From positions 124,001 to 188,000 of the forward strand of contig JAFIFE010000011.1 in assembly GCA_020832185.1 (NCBI GenBank): a DNA stretch of 64,000 nt, written 5' to 3'. Source of the stretch: Alkalibacterium sp. (GTDB taxonomy: Bacteria; Bacillota; Bacilli; Lactobacillales; Carnobacteriaceae_A). Each line of letters begins with the position of its first letter. The first letter of the stretch is position 1. A program made the position numbers and the translations under genes. The notes beneath the pieces were generated by a model, which ran no database searches, was not told the DNA's origin, and saw nothing but the letters and a program-made list of their open reading frames with translations. This document shows, piece after piece, positions 2,036 to 25,993 of this stretch.

Positions 2036-3796
2036 TCATTCATCTCGTAACTGCTGATGGGCAAAGGACTGGTAAAGGGGGTGTGTCTTTAATAGTTCTT
2101 CATGTTTCCCGACGCCTGTGAGTCGCCCGTTTTCAATAAACAGAATTTTATCTGCGTCTACGATAGTGCTTAAGCGGTGGGCAATCACAAACGTCGTCCG
2201 TCCTTCCATCAGTTTAGACAGGGCCTGAGATACTTTTTCTTCAGACTGACTATCCAGACTGGCAGTCGCTTCATCCATCATCAGTACTTTCGGGTCTCTT
2301 AAAAAGGCTCTGGCAATGTTGATTCGCTGCCTTTGTCCCCCTGACAATTTCAGTCCGCGTTCACCTACAGGCTCGTCCAGTTTTAATGGGAACTGGCTGA
2401 CAAAGTCTTTTGCGAATGCCATTTCCAGCACTTCCCAGAGCCGTTCATCTGATAGGTCTTCTGCGTCAGGCAAGCCGTAACACACATTCGAACGGATCGT
2501 TCCTGACATCATAGCGTTCTCTTGAGAGACGTAACCGATCTGACTTCGCCAGGAATTTAAGGAAATCTCCTCGATTGATTCCGCCCCTACCCGGATTTCA
2601 CCACTGTTCGGTGTATAAAAACGTTCCAGCAAAGCAAAAATCGTCGATTTCCCGCCTCCACTTGGTCCGGCAAACGCAATTTTTTCTCCGGGACGCGTGT
2701 CAAAAGAGACAGCATGAAGCACATCATTTTTCTCTTCATACGCAAAACTCACATGATCAAAAATAATCGGCAAGTCGGCGATGTTCTTCTCTTTCCCTTG
2801 GTGCTTCGCCTCTTCTTGTTCATCCAGGATAGTCGCAATGCGTTCTGTCGCTCCTGCTGCCTTCTGCATCTGCATGAAAAAGTTCATGAAAGTGATGACC
2901 GGGAAAATGATTTGAAAAAGGTAAAGTAAAAAAGCAACGAGTTGTCCTGTCGTCATGATGCCCTGAGCGACTCTGACACCACCGTATCCAATAACAAACA
3001 CCATAACCCCCATCATTAAAGTGTAGATCAGCGGGCTGATAATTGCCATGTATTTGCCTTCTTTTAATCCGATCTGATAGAGTTTAGTAATATCTTCCTG
3101 GCCTTTATCTTCCTCATACTGTTCAGCAGTTGACGATTTCATTAATCTGATTTCGGCAATTGTCTGCTGTATTTTTCCAGAAAAAGAAGCTGTTTCATCC
3201 TGCATCTCTCTGGAGACTTTCGCGATTTTTCTTCCCAGCGGACGAGTCATAATCAATGCTAACGGAACAGCTGTCAGCATAACGACAGTCATCTGCCAGT
3301 CCATCAAGACTAATATAATAAAAATACCAAAGAGCGAAAGAATCCCATTGATAAACTGCGGGAAAAATGATGAAATCAGATTCTGAACGATGGTTGTATC
3401 ATTCGTGATCCGACTGACCACTTCTCCTGAGGCATGCTGGTCAAAAAAAGAAACGGGTAACTTAATGACTTTCTGCCATAAAAAGGTTCTAAGGCCGGAT
3501 ACGACTCGCTGGCCTATTTTATGGAGGACATAATTTGAGAATCCATTGAATATCACCTGGAAGACAAATATGCCGATAATCAGTGCAATCATCCACGGAG
3601 CAAATTGATCGAACTCAATGCCATCTATAAATTGCTGTGTTGCTAAGGGAATCATCAGTTGAGTGATTGTTGTCAGTAGACTTCCAGCCAGCCCAATGGC
3701 TATCAATCCTTTTGAAATTCTAGTTGACCAAATCAGCTGCATGAATTTTTTCAGATCCTGCTTTGTTGGTGTCTTTGTTTCTGGTGTCTTCTGCAT
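2036..3796 (-). CDS. ABC exporter, fused permease-ATPase (BmrA/LmrA-like multidrug type)
   Basis: The protein is 586 residues long, a half-transporter that should work as a homodimer exporting lipophilic compounds or lipids. The first ~310 residues form a six-helix type IV exporter membrane domain. The C-terminal ATPase carries Walker A GPSGGGKST, the signature LSGGQRQR, Walker B VLMMDEATASLD and the switch histidine in FVIAHRLST. The length and a single nucleotide-binding domain fit the BmrA (YvcC)/LmrA family. Start ATG 3796 is preceded by GAGG with 7-base spacing. It stands alone between the leuS terminator and its own terminator. Substrate cannot be told from sequence. Confidence 0.87.
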   Translation of the reverse strand: MQKTPETKTPTKQDLKKFMQLIWSTRISKGLIAIGLAGSLLTTITQLMIPLATQQFIDGIEFDQFAPWMIALIIGIFVFQVIFNGFSNYVLHKIGQRVVSGLRTFLWQKVIKLPVSFFDQHASGEVVSRITNDTTIVQNLISSFFPQFINGILSLFGIFIILVLMDWQMTVVMLTAVPLALIMTRPLGRKIAKVSREMQDETASFSGKIQQTIAEIRLMKSSTAEQYEEDKGQEDITKLYQIGLKEGKYMAIISPLIYTLMMGVMVFVIGYGGVRVAQGIMTTGQLVAFLLYLFQIIFPVITFMNFFMQMQKAAGATERIATILDEQEEAKHQGKEKNIADLPIIFDHVSFAYEEKNDVLHAVSFDTRPGEKIAFAGPSGGGKSTIFALLERFYTPNSGEIRVGAESIEEISLNSWRSQIGYVSQENAMMSGTIRSNVCYGLPDAEDLSDERLWEVLEMAFAKDFVSQFPLKLDEPVGERGLKLSGGQRQRINIARAFLRDPKVLMMDEATASLDSQSEEKVSQALSKLMEGRTTFVIAHRLSTIVDADKILFIENGRLTGVGKHEELLKTHPLYQSFAHQQLRDE

Positions 3797-8320: not shown

Positions 8321-11300
8321 TTACTTGGTCACAATTAATCGCTGATTTACAAATATAAGATCACTGTTTAAGGAATTCAACTCTTTTAATTCACTCACAG
8401 TAAGATTATATTGTTTAGCGATATGAGATAATGTATCCCCAGCTGCAACTGTGTGCTCTGCATCATTTATAACAGACACAGGCTCTGAAACAGGTGCCTG
8501 CTTAAACACAAGCGTCTGGTTTACAAAGATAATATCGCTTGTCAAATTGTTCCATTCTTTAATCTGGTTTAATGTGACACTGTATTCTCTTGCCAGATGA
8601 GAAAGAGTCTCCCCAGATTTGACTACGTGTCTAATCTCATCAGTTTTCACTGGTTCAGGTGCGGGAGTAACAGGTTTAGGTACTTCAGCAGGTGCTGCCG
8701 AGACAACCAGTTGCTGACCGATAAATAGACGATCAGCATTCTCCAGTTTGTTCAGGTTCATCAATTCAGTAAGCGACATGTTGTGAGCACGGGCGATTTG
8801 ACTTAAAGTATCCCCCGCCTTCACTACAACGCTCCCATTGACTGTCTTCACAGGTGCTGGCGTTGGTGCCGGAGCTGGTTCTACCGGTTTAGGGGCGTTG
8901 ACTTGCTCCGTTGTCACTGTCAAACGTTGTCCAATAAAGATTCGGTCAGCATTCTCCAATTTGTTCAGATTCATCAGTTCAGCAAGCGTCATGTTATGGG
9001 CGCGGGCGATTTGACTTAAAGTATCTCCTGCCTTCACTACAACATTCCCACTCACTGTTTTTACGGGTTCTGGAGTTGGTGCTGGAGTCGGAGCTGTCGG
9101 CTTAGGTGCTTCCTGTTTATTCAGCGACAGAACAAGCTGTTGTCCGACAAAAATCCGGTCTGTATTTACCAGATTATTTAGGTCTCTTAATTGTGTCAGC
9201 GACAAATTATGTGTACGTGCAATCTGACTGAGTGTATCGCCTGATTTAACTGTGTACGAAGCAGCTGTTGGTTGAACAGGAGCTGTTGGCGCTGGTTTTG
9301 GTGTCGCAGGTTTACTCTCTTCTCCCTGACCTTTAACCACGATTAATCTTTGTCCGACTGAGAGACGATTTGAGTCCTTCAGATTATTTATTGAAACAAG
9401 GGTGCTTACTGTCGTATTTTGACTTCGTGCGATTTGACTCAAAGTATCGCCAGCTTTGACTACGTATTCCACTTGCTGAGAAGGCGCTGGACTAGGTGCT
9501 GGTGTTTCCTGCTTAACTGCCGTAGCGTTGATCGTCAGCTTTTGACCGATAAAAATCCGGTCAGTGGATAAGTTGTTATCTGAACTTATTTTAGCAACTG
9601 TCGTGTTATACTCACGTGCAATTCGACTTAATGTATCGCCATTTTTAACTGTGTACACTGATTCTGATACTGGCTGTTCTTTTACAGGCTGCTGGCTTTC
9701 TTCTGTGACAGGTTGATTGCTTGGCACAGTCAGGACTGTTCCTGTGCGAATCATATCTGTCTGAAGAGTGTTGAGTGTTCTAAGCGTAGATACTGTCGTT
9801 TTGTTCACTCTAGCAATACTGTATAGTGTATCTCCAGATTTGACTGTGTAGGACGTTGTGCCCTTGACTGTCTCAGATGGTTTATCGCTGGAAGGGGGAT
9901 TGACTACTTCCTGAACACTCCCTTGAACGACTAATGTCTGTCCGACAAAAATAGTATCCGACTGCAGCTTATTAGCTGATTTAAGTGCCGCAACCGTTGT
10001 GTTATACGTTCTAGCCAGCTGTGAAAGTGTATCTCCTCTTTTCACAGTGATTGACTGTGTTTTTGAATCCGTACTTTCTGCTGGTGGTGTCACTGGTGTT
10101 TCACTATTCGCTAATCCTGGAATAGTCAATAACTGATTCACAAAAATACGGTCTGATGACAGCTTATTTAATTGTCTGATTGCATTAACAGTTGTATTAA
10201 ATCTTCTGGCAATCGACGTCAACGTGTCTCCACTGACAACACTATAGGATTGCCCGTTTGTCTCAACTGGCTTAGAAGGAGCTGTGACACCCGTTTCCGG
10301 TTTCGCTTCTTCTTTAGGCTTTTCTGGTGCAGGTTGAGTGGTTTGTAATTTAGGCACCGTTAATGTCTGATTTACAAATATCAGATCTGTCGTTAAATGG
10401 TTAGCTGTTTTTAGAGCTTGAACAGTGGTTTTAAACTCACGAGCTATCTTGCTGAGTGTGTCCCCACTTGCGACTCTATAGGTTGTTGTTTCAGCAAATG
10501 GATTTGACGGGTTTGACGGAGCCGGACTTGGTGTTGGCTTGGGTGCTGGACTAGGTGTCGGCTTGCTTACACTTCCAGACGGCACATCAAAACGAGTCAA
10601 ATCGTATAGCTGAATTAGATTATTAAGTTTACTTGCATACGTCGGATCTGTTGCATAACGCCCCTGTAACCAGGCTGTTGCATCTCGGTAGCTCGTCGTT
10701 CTTTCAATCCATGCTCCAGCATAGAATTCAGGATTCCAACTGAGTCCTCTTCTTAAGAGGCGGGCGTTATCATTAAGAGACGCCTCGTAGTTCGGATACT
10801 TTTTGAAGTGATCAGTAATAGTGATCCAGCCTGTATGCGAATAATATTCTTTTGTCTGCTTGGCAACAGATTGTCCATTGTAACTTCCTTTGATCCCGAA
10901 AAGATTATAGTTCGGGTGCGCTGATAAACTGCTTCGTCCGTAACCCGATTCCAGGCTTGCCTGAGCAATCATAACGGACGCATATAATCCATTTTGAGAC
11001 GCCACTTCTTGAGCATACCCGGCAATCTGGTTAATGAATGCTGTTGGTGTCGCAGCCTGGTTCAAGTTACCTGGAGTAGTCGGCTGTGGAGTCTTAGCTT
11101 CTGATACCCCTGCTTCGTTGATTGCCAGTACTTGTCCAACAGAAATACGATTAATATTGGCAAGTTTATTCAAGCTTGCCAGCTTTGCTGTCGTCGTATT
11201 ATATAATTGTGCTATTTTACCCAAAGTATCCCCTGACTTCACAACATAGACCACTGCCTTGTCATCAGTCTTGACGGGTGTTTCCTTAATAGGCTGTTCT

Positions 11301-21084: not shown

Positions 21085-22074
21085 TTGAAAAATAGAACTA
21101 AAAGATGGCTGCTCTCCGGCGGAATGCTTACGATGGTACTCTTCTTGTCAGGATGTATGAGAGTCGATCAGAGCGGAACACCTACAAGTGGATTTTCACA
21201 ATTTTTATATGACTACCTTGTTTTACCTACTCAAGCTGTGATCGAAATTCTAGCAGACTTATTTGGAGGAAACTACGGATTATCCATTATTGCCATTACA
21301 ATAATCGTGCGAATTCTAATCTTGCCTCTTTCAATTAAACAGCAGCGGACTACACTTGAACAACAGACTAAAATGGCAGTTGTCAAACCTGTTACTGATG
21401 AAATTCAGGCTGAAATGAAAGAAACAGACAATGCTCAAGAGAAACAGGCCCTTCAAGCGGAATTGATGGAAGTATACAGAGAAAACAATGTAAACATGTT
21501 AGGTGGTTTAGCAGGGTGTTTACCTCTGTTGATTCAGATGCCAGTCTTTACAGCAATGTTCCAGGCTATTCGTATGTCGGAATCCATTCAGAGCGCAACT
21601 TGGTTAGGGATTCAATTAGGAGAACGTAGTATTATACTGGCTCTGCTAACGGGTGCCGTCTACTATGTCCAAACTAAGGTCATGTCAGCTGGTATGCCAG
21701 AAGAACAGCGTAAGCAATCAAGTACGATGATGATGATGAACCCTGTTATGATCTTAATGTTCTCAATTACTGGACCCGCTGGATTAACGCTATACTGGTT
21801 CGCCGGTGGATTCGTCGCAATTGGTCAATCACTTTTAACTAATCATTACTATAAACCAAAAATCGAAAAAGAAATGAAAGAAAAACACGGCGATAAGCAA
21901 GTCGTCGAACGTAAAAAACCATCACGCAGAAAAATCGATGCAGAAGAAGTCGATTCAAGTAAATCCAAGCGTGTGACTGCTGCTCCATCTGCTAAAGACA
22001 AACGTCGTAACCAGAGTCCTTTTGAATCAAAAGACCGACGCAATTCAGGTAAACAGCAGCGAAACAATAACTAA
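21085..22074 (+). CDS. yidC: Membrane protein insertase YidC/OxaA
   Basis: The 329-residue lipoprotein-type YidC inserts and folds membrane proteins. It has a signal peptide with lipobox LSGC (Cys24) and five membrane helices, including GLSIIAITIIVRILILPL and LAGCLPLLIQMPVFTAMF. A basic tail of about 60 residues likely contacts ribosomes. The start is TTG 21085, because the next Met falls inside the signal peptide. It follows acyP by 84 bases and ends at a clear terminator. Confidence 0.93.
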   Translation: MKNRTKRWLLSGGMLTMVLFLSGCMRVDQSGTPTSGFSQFLYDYLVLPTQAVIEILADLFGGNYGLSIIAITIIVRILILPLSIKQQRTTLEQQTKMAVVKPVTDEIQAEMKETDNAQEKQALQAELMEVYRENNVNMLGGLAGCLPLLIQMPVFTAMFQAIRMSESIQSATWLGIQLGERSIILALLTGAVYYVQTKVMSAGMPEEQRKQSSTMMMMNPVMILMFSITGPAGLTLYWFAGGFVAIGQSLLTNHYYKPKIEKEMKEKHGDKQVVERKKPSRRKIDAEEVDSSKSKRVTAAPSAKDKRRNQSPFESKDRRNSGKQQRNNN

Positions 22075-22089
22075 TTGACTAAATAGGAA

Positions 22090-22118
22090 AGCAGAGACCC
22101 TCGGGCCTCTGCTTTTTT
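22090..22118 (+). terminator. Terminator of yidC
   Basis: AGCAGAG pairs with CTCTGCT around an inner CC/GG pair and is followed by TTTTTTCTTT. Confidence 0.85.
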
Positions 22119-22148
22119 CTTTGTCCGACATGTCTGTTAATGATGGTC

Positions 22149-22169
22149 GGCGGTCATGACTTGACCGCC
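22149..22169. repeat. Inverted repeat ahead of the 105-bp array
   Basis: GGCGGTCA (22149-22156) and TGACCGCC (22162-22169) form an 8-bp perfect stem with a 5-base loop. It sits between the yidC terminator and the tandem array and has no clear T-run. Confidence 0.6.
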
Positions 22170-22200
22170 TTCCTTTGTATCACCCACTGGCTCTAACCTT

Positions 22201-22637
22201 CTCGAGTGCTACCTATCTGGTATCATTATGTAGCACTCGTGATCCTTCACCCTCGCCAGTCCGACACTTACGGCTTCTTGTGTAGCACTCGCTGGCCCTG
22301 AACATCTCGAGTGCTACCTAATTGATCCCATTGTGTAGGACTCGTGATCCTTCACTCTCGCCAGTCCGACACTTACCGCTTCTTATGTAGCACTCGCCTT
22401 TCCTGAATGCCTCGAGTGCTACCTATCTGGTCTCATTGTGTAGCACTCGTGATCCTTCACCCTCGCCAGTCCGACACTTACCGCTTCTTCTGTAGCACTC
22501 GTTGTACCTGAACATCTCGAGTGCTACCTATCTGATCCCATTGTGTAGCACTCGTGATCCTTCACCCTCACCAGTCCGACACTTACCGCTTCTTCTGTAG
22601 CACTCGCTGGCCCTGAACACTTCGAGTGCTACCTATA
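22201..22637. repeat. 105-bp tandem array, four full units and one partial, each with three copies of a 10-bp element
   Basis: Units begin at 22201, 22306, 22411, 22516 and 22621 (the last is partial), exactly 105 bases apart. Each full unit has CGAGTGCTAC at offset 2, its inverse GTAGCACTCG at offset 29 and again at offset 81. The elements therefore start at 22203/22230/22282, 22308/22335/22387, 22413/22440/22492, 22518/22545/22597 and 22623. Only the copy at 22335 has a base change. Same-orientation elements are 52 or 53 bases apart. All frames carry stop codons in every unit, so it is not coding. The region between the yidC stop and the NERD gene holds nothing else beyond a terminator and a hairpin. 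Confidence 0.97.
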
Positions 22638-23543
22638 GTACCGACCTCTTCCTGCTCCTTCTTTAATGAACGACTCTTCTAGTACAATGCTGATACTTCG
22701 TTTGTATATCCTCTCTCCTATCCATTCATATACTAGAGAAGTGGTCACTTTTTTATCGGGGTATAAAAGGATCAAATTATTAATGTTTTCTATCAAACAA
22801 TTCTTTCTGCTTGTAGCACGCTCACAGTTAAGACATACGCACGATCGCTGATTCAGTTTTAAATCAAAACTCTTGCAGGATCCACATGTTAACCCCTTTT
22901 TCAGTTTGTCCCAATGAAAGTCGGGAAGCTGTTTCTGATATGGTACTTCGTCTCTATGGTGTTCAATTAATCGGTTAGCCAGCGACCTCACCTGTTGAGG
23001 CACCTTGTTATGCTGACTATTTAACAGCTTTAAGTGAGAGATAAGCTGGGAAGGTAACACGACTTGTTCATCAGGCTGGGCTTCATATAATGTAAAAGTC
23101 TGATGTACAAAAACCACTGCTCCCTTAAGCGGAGTCGCGACCTTCCATTGTTTCAACAGCTGACTCAATAAAGTTAATGTTTTATTGAGTTGGTTTTTGG
23201 GATTTAAAATATCGTACCCATTGGTTTTTCTATAATGATCATTATCATACCTGTAATTTCCTCTATAATTTTTAATTTCAAACAGGTAAATGATATCTGG
23301 CGCCAATATTAATGAATCAATCTGAATAGTTGATCCGTTTACCGACAGCAAAAGATCGTTTAAAACGATCCCTCCACTCGTAACACCTTCACTGAACATT
23401 TGATCAAATGCCAATTCTCCTTCAAAACCAGCTTTTAGTGCTCGGTAATAATTGTCCACATCTGTGCTCAATTTCATACGACTGTTTAAAATATCCAGTC
23501 CTTCCAGTAACTGTGACCTATTTCTTGTTTTTAATACATCCAT
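22629..23543 (-). CDS. NERD-domain protein with C-terminal zinc ribbon
   Basis: The 304-residue protein has a NERD (nuclease-related) domain at about 38-150, with conserved FEGELAFDQ, the acid residue of QIDSLILAPD and the FEIKNYRGNY strand, matching restriction-endonuclease-like folds. A zinc ribbon follows near residue 217 (CGSCKSF...CVCLNCE). The C-terminus is a winged-helix-like basic region. NERD proteins are predicted DNA-processing enzymes of unknown role. ATG 23543 has AAAGGAGGTTT upstream. The TAG stop codon is supplied by the last 10-bp element of the tandem array. It sits downstream of the two-component gene pair but beyond their terminator, so it is separately transcribed. Confidence 0.85.
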   Translation of the reverse strand: MDVLKTRNRSQLLEGLDILNSRMKLSTDVDNYYRALKAGFEGELAFDQMFSEGVTSGGIVLNDLLLSVNGSTIQIDSLILAPDIIYLFEIKNYRGNYRYDNDHYRKTNGYDILNPKNQLNKTLTLLSQLLKQWKVATPLKGAVVFVHQTFTLYEAQPDEQVVLPSQLISHLKLLNSQHNKVPQQVRSLANRLIEHHRDEVPYQKQLPDFHWDKLKKGLTCGSCKSFDLKLNQRSCVCLNCERATSRKNCLIENINNLILLYPDKKVTTSLVYEWIGERIYKRSISIVLEESFIKEGAGRGRYYR

Positions 23544-23611
23544 TTCGAAACCTCCTTTATAAGTATATTGATCAAAAAAAGGAAATGTCGCGAAATAAAA
23601 TGTGAATAGAC

Positions 23612-23641
23612 AAAAAGACCCGATACAGTGTATCGGGTCTT
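23612..23641 (-). terminator. Terminator of the two-component operon
   Basis: AAGACCCGATACA pairs perfectly with TGTATCGGGTCTT around a single base, and TTTTTG follows on the minus strand. It ends five bases before the kinase stop codon. Confidence 0.9.
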
Positions 23642-23645
23642 CGAC

Positions 23646-25160
23646 TTATTTTTCAACTGTTTCTTCTTTTTTCAGTTTAGGCAATTCGATTCTAAAAATC
23701 GATCCGTGATTCAATACACTTTCAGCCCAAATCTTTCCATGATATCCTTCAATCAGCTGTTTCGCAATTGACAAACCAAGACCGTTTCCACCCTTATGTC
23801 GGCTACGCGCTTTATCTACGCGGTAAAATCGGTTAAAGATTTTAACGGTATCTTCCTGAGTCATTCCTTCACCATAATCCTGAATAGCGATCTGAACATT
23901 TTGACCATTATCAGATACACTCAAGTGGACTTCCTGACGATCGGTTGAATACTTGACCGCGTTATCAAGGAGAATAATTAGAATCTGTTCCAGATGATTA
24001 CGGTAAATATTGACGAATACGTCATCTTCTAAATCATCATCTAAGATGAAAGAGAACTCTGGATGAACCAGTTTGAAATTATTAAACGTCTGATTAATGA
24101 TTGCTCTGATCTCTGTTCGTTCATTTTTATAATGAATCTCCACCTGTTCAGCTCGAGACAAGTCGAGCATTTCCTGAACCAGGCTCTTCATACGACCCAT
24201 CTCCTGCAGTGAAGCTTCCAGCGACTCTTCCAGTATAACGGGGTCGTCTTTCCCCCAGCGGTTCAAGAGTTTCATATGCCCTTCCACTACTGCAACGGGT
24301 GTCCGCAATTCATGGGATACATCTTCTACGAACTGTTTCTGCTGCTCAATATTCCGCTGCATCCGGTCGAGCATTGCGTTATACGCATTCGCTAGTTCGG
24401 TCAGTTCATCATTCCCGTCTCCAACATCAATGCGTTCTTGAGATTCCGGATCCTTCTCAATGATATGCATCGCTTCAGTCAGTCGACGAATCGGCTGAAG
24501 GAAAGAGATCGCAATAATGTACCCTATCACTCCACTAAAAAGCAAAGCAATGACGCCTGTGAGTAAAATCGCTCCTAACACTCTTCTAAAAAGCTGGTGA
24601 TAAGAAGCTAGTGTATTGATCACCTGAATGTAGCCGATTTTTTCATTATTTAAGAATGAATAAACAGGCGTTACTGCTGATAATGCTTCCCCATTCGGTC
24701 CCTCGGGAATTGTCTGGATCTGTAAATTCTCTCGTGATTCGAATCCGATATCGACCGTGTTCGTCTCGTAAAGGAGTTCTTCATTTGGACTATATACTCT
24801 GATAACGATCGTGCCTTGACTCGGTCGCAGAGGTGTACTTCTTTGATTTTGAGTTTCTTCCAATATGGGCATCTCAGGTGTTAGATACAGCTCCTGCTGA
24901 TCCAGCGTTTCCTCTACATCTTCTTCAGTCAACTCATAAAAATGCTGTCCGAAACGTTCGGTCAAGTTATAAACCACATTTCTGACAGCCTGTTGCTCGT
25001 TATCGATCATTATTTGTTGAAATGTTATAAAAAGAATAGTTGAAAAGATAGTATAGGTTAGAAATAACGCAATCGCAGCCCCAATTGTCCACTTCCATCT
25101 TAAAGAAATACGTTTCTGCTGGTTCACTGCAGTCGTATCAATGGCTGCTTGTGATTTCAC
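23646..25160 (-). CDS. Sensor histidine kinase, HAMP type (ArlS/LisK-like)
   Basis: This 504-residue membrane kinase has a first helix at about 25-48, an extracellular sensor of some 130 residues and a second helix near 190-215. HAMP, HisKA with phosphoacceptor His283 in VSHELRTP, and HATPase with ILLDNAVKYS and GGNGLGLSIAKQL follow. It should phosphorylate the upstream-encoded regulator. The GTG start overlaps the regulator stop by four bases (GTGA), so the pair is translationally coupled. The neighbour gnd resembles the LisRK/EtaRS loci of Listeria and Enterococcus, stress and envelope sensors. That assignment is by context. Confidence 0.88.
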   Translation of the reverse strand: MKSQAAIDTTAVNQQKRISLRWKWTIGAAIALFLTYTIFSTILFITFQQIMIDNEQQAVRNVVYNLTERFGQHFYELTEEDVEETLDQQELYLTPEMPILEETQNQRSTPLRPSQGTIVIRVYSPNEELLYETNTVDIGFESRENLQIQTIPEGPNGEALSAVTPVYSFLNNEKIGYIQVINTLASYHQLFRRVLGAILLTGVIALLFSGVIGYIIAISFLQPIRRLTEAMHIIEKDPESQERIDVGDGNDELTELANAYNAMLDRMQRNIEQQKQFVEDVSHELRTPVAVVEGHMKLLNRWGKDDPVILEESLEASLQEMGRMKSLVQEMLDLSRAEQVEIHYKNERTEIRAIINQTFNNFKLVHPEFSFILDDDLEDDVFVNIYRNHLEQILIILLDNAVKYSTDRQEVHLSVSDNGQNVQIAIQDYGEGMTQEDTVKIFNRFYRVDKARSRHKGGNGLGLSIAKQLIEGYHGKIWAESVLNHGSIFRIELPKLKKEETVEK

Positions 25161-25849
25161 GTACGCATCACGTATCCTGTTCCTCGAACAGTCTGGATGT
25201 AGCTTTCTTTACCTGACACGTCTATTTTGTTGCGCAGGTATCTGATGTAGACATCCACTACATTTGTTTCCACTTCTGTTTCATATCCCCATACTTTATT
25301 CAAGAGGACTTCACGGGATAACACCACATTGACGTTTTCCATTAATTCGACCAGAAGTTCATACTCTCTCTTTGTTAATTCAATGACTTCGTCTGCACGT
25401 TTAACGACACGGTTTTCCTTTTCAACAGTAATGTCTTTATAGTTGATCGTCGTTTGACGGCTGACGTTTTCTTCGGTTTCGATTTCAATACGACGAAGTA
25501 ACGCACGCATACGCGCCAGTAACTCTTCAATAGCAAACGGTTTGACCACATAATCATCTGCTCCGTGATCAAATCCTGATACACGGTCGATGACCGAGTC
25601 ACGTGCTGTCATCATGATGATCGGCACATTGCTTACCTGACGGATACGGCGGGCAACATCGATTCCGTTCAGTTCCGGCAGCATCAAGTCCAGCAATATG
25701 ATGTCCCAGTCTGCATCTTCATTGATTGCCGCTTCAAGACCGGCACGGCCATCAAAGCGGACTTCTGTTTTAAAGCCTTCATGATTCAGCTCCAGCTCGA
25801 CGAAACGGGCTAAGTTTTTTTCATCTTCAATTATTAAAATATTCGCCAT
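25157..25849 (-). CDS. OmpR-family response regulator (ArlR/LisR-like)
   Basis: The 230-residue regulator has a receiver domain (about 1-120, acid pocket IIEDE, phosphoacceptor Asp54 in LLDLMLP, Lys in VVKPF) and a winged-helix DNA-binding domain ending in QTVRGTGYVMR. It is the partner of the kinase encoded immediately downstream. The frame opens six codons earlier, but TAGGAGTGA lies before ATG 25849. Its regulon cannot be read from this window. Confidence 0.9.
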   Translation of the reverse strand: MANILIIEDEKNLARFVELELNHEGFKTEVRFDGRAGLEAAINEDADWDIILLDLMLPELNGIDVARRIRQVSNVPIIMMTARDSVIDRVSGFDHGADDYVVKPFAIEELLARMRALLRRIEIETEENVSRQTTINYKDITVEKENRVVKRADEVIELTKREYELLVELMENVNVVLSREVLLNKVWGYETEVETNVVDVYIRYLRNKIDVSGKESYIQTVRGTGYVMRT

Positions 25850-25993
25850 TATATTCACTCCTAGCATGATTTACCTGTTTCAATTTATTTATAGGATACT
25901 TCCTTTAATTCCTGTCACAAGGCTCTTTCAGTGTACCACAGTTTGAGCCTTTAGGGAACGAATGATAGCATCTTTAGGACTATTGTAACAGTA

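Follow-up and report, generated by a model that had tools for sequence, protein, structure and literature searches.

Helically phased arrays of alternating half-sites beside NERD-domain genes in Alkalibacterium and other Bacilli

Here we describe an array of short half-sites, alternating in orientation and phased with the DNA helix, that lies next to a NERD-domain gene in an Alkalibacterium sp., stays at this address in related genomes while its own sequence turns over, and has counterparts beside NERD genes across the Bacilli. In six genomes, dispersed arrays elsewhere in the chromosome carry the motif of the NERD-side array of the same genome. Taken together, these comparisons make it probable that the NERD protein binds the arrays, in cis as well as in trans, as a phased nucleoprotein fibre, and that array and gene form one unit. 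With somewhat less than even confidence, we further propose that this is an unnamed, widespread system of Bacilli, in which a fast-evolving NERD nuclease would read, and perhaps write or multiply, its own phased palindromic satellite, with a repeat length that would follow from protein-DNA geometry.

Results

The window, by which we mean the whole 64,000-nucleotide stretch that was analysed, belongs to a genome of 2.64 Mb (G000; G and L numbers are our working labels for the genomes and loci compared). A degenerate half-site scan found 17 half-sites of 10 bp (GTMGNACTCR) at 22203-22632, alternating in orientation every 26-27 bp, with minus-strand half-sites at 22203, 22256, 22308, 22361, 22413, 22466, 22518, 22571 and 22623 and plus-strand half-sites at 22230, 22282, 22335, 22387, 22440, 22492, 22545 and 22597. 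A possible degenerate first half-site, GTATCACCCA (22177..22186, plus strand, 7/9 scored positions), is situated 26 bp 5' of the first clear one. The tandem array of 105-bp units put forward in the original prediction was confirmed by TRF (22159-22636, 4.5 copies, period 105, 86% matches) and proved more regular than described. That prediction had counted three elements per unit, a 10-mer once and its inverse twice; these are indeed present, and a fourth, degenerate element, CCAGTCCGAC, had been missed at 22256, 22361, 22466 and 22571, so that the elements of one unit alternate every 27, 26, 26 and 26 bp. The predicted distance of 52/53 bp between the starts of same-orientation elements was borne out; the copied unit is thus 105 bp and the underlying lattice period ~52.5 bp, with array autocorrelation values of 0.40 at lag 52 and 0.39 at lag 53, both below the 0.86 at lag 105. 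The 10-mer or its inverse occurs at 22203-22632 in 12 exact copies and one single-mismatch copy (22335), and at ≤1 mismatch the 64-kb window holds 16 matches, as compared with a mean of 1.76 in shuffles. The stronger conservation claimed for the 10-mers also held, as 1/40 of their columns are variable among the four units versus 19/65 in the spacers (Fisher p 3.3e-4). Elsewhere in the window, two 213-bp copies at 8733-9160 look by eye like LysM-type protein repeats.

The array lies, as predicted, between yidC and a NERD gene, except that the end of the NERD gene (22629) falls inside the last element rather than beyond it. On the left is an ORF (21085..22074, plus strand) that we take, with the original prediction, to be a yidC-type membrane insertase; the NERD gene (22629..23543, minus strand) is followed on the right by ORFs that are presumably a sensor histidine kinase (23646..25160, minus strand) and a response regulator (25157..25867, minus strand). 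The order acylphosphatase, yidC, array, NERD, kinase, regulator is kept in eight genomes (G000, G001, G002, G003, G004, G005, G006 and G011), and an array is found in 8/8 of the orthologous yidC-NERD intergenic stretches of these Alkalibacterium genomes, that of G002 being mostly an assembly gap. Among the seven relatives, identity to the window proteins is 75-94% for YidC, 82-94% for the kinase and 91-99% for the regulator, against 35-65% for NERD. G004, with the NERD protein that is 65% identical, has a half-site close to that of the window, and the half-sites of the remaining relatives diverge more. The NERD loci fetched from four other members of the genus (G007, G008, G009 and G010) sit elsewhere.

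The NERD protein (304 aa), which we propose as the array reader, matches Pfam PF08378 with an E-value of 8.9e-15 and 55.6 bits (cut-off 22.1). Among 69 aligned NERD proteins, D76 and E89 are conserved in 69/69, E43 in 68/69 and K91 in 67/69, and we presume that these four residues form the nuclease site; assignment to the PD-(D/E)XK type is our own tentative reading, and nuclease activity is putative. Three cysteines are invariant in the same 69 proteins (C220, C223 and C237) and C240 is found in 68/69, an arrangement that is zinc-ribbon-like, and the variable C-terminus looks by eye like a winged helix. In the Pfam search only NERD scored above its cut-off, with zinc-ribbon matches below theirs and no helix-turn-helix match; a PDB sequence search gave only three matches with E 0.6-0.9. 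Eight NERD genes were counted in G000; an array could be detected at three of them, and 5/8 showed none. Ten NERD copies among the matches listed carry in-frame stops (e.g. G000:C27:65292-66155), which we take as a sign of gene birth and death.

Could the locus be a defence or addiction unit, in which the array sequesters a nuclease that invading DNA or loss of the locus would set free? The conserved nuclease-type residues, the fast divergence of NERD between stable neighbours, the many paralogues and the copies with in-frame stops would all fit. However, PADLOC found no full defence system, only weak and partial PglW, MkoA, Cas10 and LmuB matches in five proteins, tblastn with the window NERD protein found no match in plasmid and phage collections, and no NERD relative was confirmed in viral contigs. 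We therefore consider such a unit unlikely, and for the same absence of relatives a phage, plasmid or viral origin was rejected.

A NERD gene recurs as array neighbour in G000, G003 and G083, and the array-side NERD proteins of these three genomes were used to build a family profile (A1). With no more than five or seven candidates scored per genome, the profile found the family in 80/395 Lactobacillales and 59/299 Bacilli genomes. Within 700 bp of the NERD gene, a TRF array with period ≥40 is present for 103 of 138 Bacilli genes (139 ORF records, one gene being split in two), compared to 3 of 196 control ORFs under the same thresholds. By group, this amounts to 43/70 NERD genes in Lactobacillales and 60/68 in other Bacilli. 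The Lactobacillales genes comprise 30 search loci and 40 hand-picked from the score list, the other Bacilli sample 28 new search loci and 40 more; loci were thus chosen by NERD score and not by array, but with a profile that itself derives from three array-side genes. The control ORFs (≥200 aa) come from 20 regions of 20 kb in 20 NERD-bearing genomes, all Lactobacillales. In these 400 kb of control sequence the only TRF rows with period ≥40 are L180:7044-7245 and L190:11463-11607, both of period 51. The array is downstream of 86 of the 103 NERD genes and upstream of 29, 12 of these having both, and the median distance from the stop codon to the downstream array is 32 bp. TRF arrays also occur in the 1.5-kb flanks of 26 of the 28 new other-Bacilli loci. 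For 35/138 NERD genes TRF found no array; at 7 of the 27 such genes in Lactobacillales the flanks nevertheless autocorrelate more strongly than any control (maximum 0.45), with the value reached at lag 51, 52 or 103.

The helical phasing claimed for the window extends well beyond it. The first autocorrelation peaks of 105 NERD-side arrays, a further 11 without clear peak being excluded from the period analysis, fall at 20-21, 41-42, 50-53, 61-63, 82-83, 93 and 102-105 bp and at none between, and their best common divisor is 10.35 bp (phase -0.06, R 0.926). None of 200,000 null sets did as well, a value that is optimistic since 82 and 103 depend on 41 and 52 and related genes repeat one another. 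At least three palindrome centres are found in 39/47 Lactobacillales arrays, and in only 22 of these 39 do spacings of 24.5-27 bp account for half or more by raw count; the spacing is regular in 25/39 if multiples are allowed. The NERD-side arrays L216, L219, L221 and L260 peak at 20-21 bp, and through them the published class of 20-21-nt repeats may be tied to the same NERD family.

The 10-mer is not confined to the yidC-NERD locus. In G000 it has 35 exact copies genome-wide (reversed control 1 + 1), and a relaxed facing-pair pattern gives 23 matches versus 0 for the control. Ten further full arrays (L009-L013, L038-L040, L045 and L102) and one short array (L103) were found in this genome, where half-sites agree from array to array, except in L102, and spacers are unrelated. 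The original prediction had called for a genome-wide search and had set its phased platform against an ordinary repeat dispersed over many loci: the element does lie at many loci, to the letter of that alternative, and what the loci have in common is half-sites and phase, not spacers. In L038, L039 and L040 spacers are unrelated even inside one array, and the alternation every 25-27 bp is still kept. L102 has the core common to the other arrays, and the remainder of its half-site differs. The L102 array, at 3300-3689 of G000:C5:76500-83500, has a TTATA-type half-site that fits none of the NERD-side arrays tested.

These arrays bear on whether we are looking at functionless minisatellites born of replication slippage, with half-sites that appear conserved because the arrays are young. 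Units are copied inside most arrays and species differ in copy number and sequence, as slippage would have it. Against this stand the half-sites and phase kept without copied spacers in L038, L039 and L040, the half-sites common to arrays with unrelated spacers, the quantised periods and the lower variability of the 10-mers relative to the spacers, and we regard slippage as a very improbable explanation.

Several dispersed, non-coding arrays per genome are present in G000, G003 and G004, and G003 has its own half-site variant with an exact 52-bp period. In a collection of named genomes, a strict three-element pattern matched six stretches, of which two belong to Alkalibacterium olivapovliticus and the other four are single matches in other organisms; with ≤3 mismatches it matched 6/27 family genomes and no control. 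The core pattern (ACTCR-N16-YGAGT, twice) occurs in at least 16/395 Lactobacillales genomes and 6/80 genera, with 0 in the controls; this is a lower bound, since G004 scores 0 despite carrying arrays. All 16 of these genomes have the NERD family, compared to 64 of 379 others (Fisher 2e-12 with kinship ignored; such values are optimistic, the genomes being related). Outside Lactobacillales, 1/271 genomes of the class gave a lone, chance-like match. The strict motif had 0 matches in viral contigs, and a core-pattern match there was dismissed as lone and chance-like. Two loci from different genera, L078 (G024:C1:507000-514000) and L271 (G006:C31:31500-38700), are 94.5% identical over 5.56 kb including the array, pointing to a recent horizontal transfer.

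Dispersed arrays were scored with matrices from NERD-side arrays covering 16 positions 5' of the core, the core itself being unscored. The matrix from the NERD-side array of the same genome scored highest on 31 of 32 dispersed arrays (G000, G003, G004, G005, G027 and G083; G011, G014, G024, G103 and G304 were left out of the test), L102 being the sole exception and some margins between G000 and G004 being small. The 16 bases 3' of the core hold ≤0.3 bit per column in G000, G003 and G004. We read the own-genome match as pointing to a common reader that would act in trans. Overall, motif similarity and protein similarity are not significantly correlated (Mantel r 0.06-0.075, p 0.23-0.24, 30 arrays). 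G304 has a dispersed motif unlike that at L173, and its NERD-side arrays examined have other motifs.

A different chromosome-structuring or nucleoid protein might instead own these sites, with NERD adjacency being secondary, for example through insertion spots. Consistent with this, G024 has core-motif arrays at L078 and L079, and other motifs in the arrays beside its two NERD matches. The neighbourhoods of 53 array loci also fit: 26 lie between tandem and 22 between convergent genes, with two undetermined and only 3 between divergent genes, so that arrays seem to avoid promoter regions. A polymerising nucleoid protein has, moreover, been proposed for similar repeats (PMC8161180). Yet array and NERD keep a common position in eight species even as both diverge, and if another protein were the reader the agreement in trans with the motif beside NERD would be a coincidence; we think this reading unlikely, slightly more so than a defence unit, and retain NERD as the probable reader.

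The original prediction had left open a binding platform or a hairpin-rich RNA. Transcription of the NERD gene may run through the array to a terminator-like hairpin at 22088..22115 (minus strand), between yidC and the array; another lies on the yidC side at 22149..22169 (plus strand), and both are pattern matches only. A pattern search of the NERD strand found no terminator-like site separating the NERD stop from the array, so the array could form part of the NERD 3' UTR and, with arrays in other transcripts, act as rows of RNA hairpins to which proteins or mRNAs would bind. The inner facing pairs of G004 show a slight excess of similarity over non-neighbours (7.57 vs 7.13 of 10; all ten equal in 12% vs 3%). 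In G000, G003 and the outer pairs of G004, by contrast, facing half-sites show no excess of complementarity over non-neighbours, the periods track the turn of B-DNA, and Rfam had no match in 21800-23800. Hairpin RNA was therefore rejected as the main reading and is improbable altogether. Of the two possibilities it is the DNA platform that is favoured, with the nuclease-like NERD protein as its likely partner, not the partition-like protein first suggested.

Discussion

How might a NERD protein use such an array? In the mechanism that we propose, the protein, with its N-terminal nuclease-related domain, zinc-ribbon-like cysteines and variable C-terminal part, would recognise the half-site, with one protomer every ~26 bp, each inverted relative to the last. 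Because the repeat length nearly equals an integral number of helical turns, the sites would all face one side of the DNA, making a cooperative fibre possible. Such a fibre would extend over a few hundred bp, both at the NERD gene and on some ten to twenty arrays elsewhere in the genome that carry the same motif. As an active nuclease, the protein might also break the arrays, and breakage and repair would then drive their fast turnover, comparable to the partnership of RAYT and REP. If true, this would be an example of coevolution between a gene and a dispersed satellite in bacteria.

The original prediction knew of no named family that fits, which does not stand: tandem repeats of 52 nt in Firmicutes have already been published. 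In PMC8161180 (Subirana and Messeguer), tandem repeats of 52 nt and of 20-21 nt in Bacillus and other Firmicutes are of constant size and free sequence, 20-21 nt is equated with two helical turns, a few 40-41-nt repeats are noted, and the 52-nt repeats of B. coagulans are reported as transcribed, a point in favour of the RNA reading. B. subtilis, B. pumilus and B. megaterium are free of 52-nt repeats according to its Tables 4 and 5. The paper leaves the partner protein unnamed, sees no evidence for a Cas-like one, and proposes either the polymerising DNA-binding protein mentioned above or small RNAs. Our arrays are of this known kind. They share with the repeats as described there a constant size, unrelated sequences, short signals together with their reverse, and many non-coding arrays per genome; in the arrays compared here the sequence is species-specific, each repeat contains short signals and their reverse, and the periods agree, with window half-sites at 52/53 bp and relatives at 51-52. 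B. indicus family 7_52_18 of that paper resembles the NERD-side arrays L206 and L207, with scores of 21 and 18 against a shuffle maximum of 14 (shuffles run on 8/23 families). On the other hand, the published account, as far as available, has no palindrome lattice, no 62-bp class and no mention of a NERD gene, and the copied unit of our window, 105 bp, is two lattice periods, unlike its 52-nt repeats. No link between such arrays and NERD was found in the literature that we searched, and the partner gene, the lattice, the quantisation of periods and the match in trans appear to be new as far as this search goes. The puzzle of 52-nt and 20-21-nt repeats with constant length and free sequence would thereby gain a candidate protein, and the length an explanation in geometry.

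Other systems resemble the arrays in part. REP/BIME sequences consist of alternating inverted elements, with one RAYT gene beside its repeat and further copies dispersed. Plasmid iterons and centromere arrays such as sopC and parC are phased tandem binding sites by the gene of a DNA-binding protein. Ours differ from the latter in being chromosomal, with many loci per genome, in having no NERD relative in the plasmid collection, and in being flanked by yidC and NERD rather than by a replication or partition gene. With REP/BIME and RAYT they have in common the alternating inverted elements, the one adjacent protein gene and the dispersed copies. However, the protein is a Y1 transposase there, whereas our neighbour shows only a NERD match, and the arrays here are long phased rows of 10-bp half-sites in which hairpin pairing is mostly not kept, the slight excess in the inner pairs of G004 apart.

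A CRISPR-like array was rejected on anatomy. Unrelated spacers of constant length between repeats are a likeness, but CRISPR repeats are direct and near-identical, whereas the arrays here alternate in orientation, with degenerate 10-bp repeats and spacers of ~16 bp. A figure legend in PMC10910872 lists NERD among putative CRISPR auxiliary genes, and our guess is that arrays of the present kind explain that listing.
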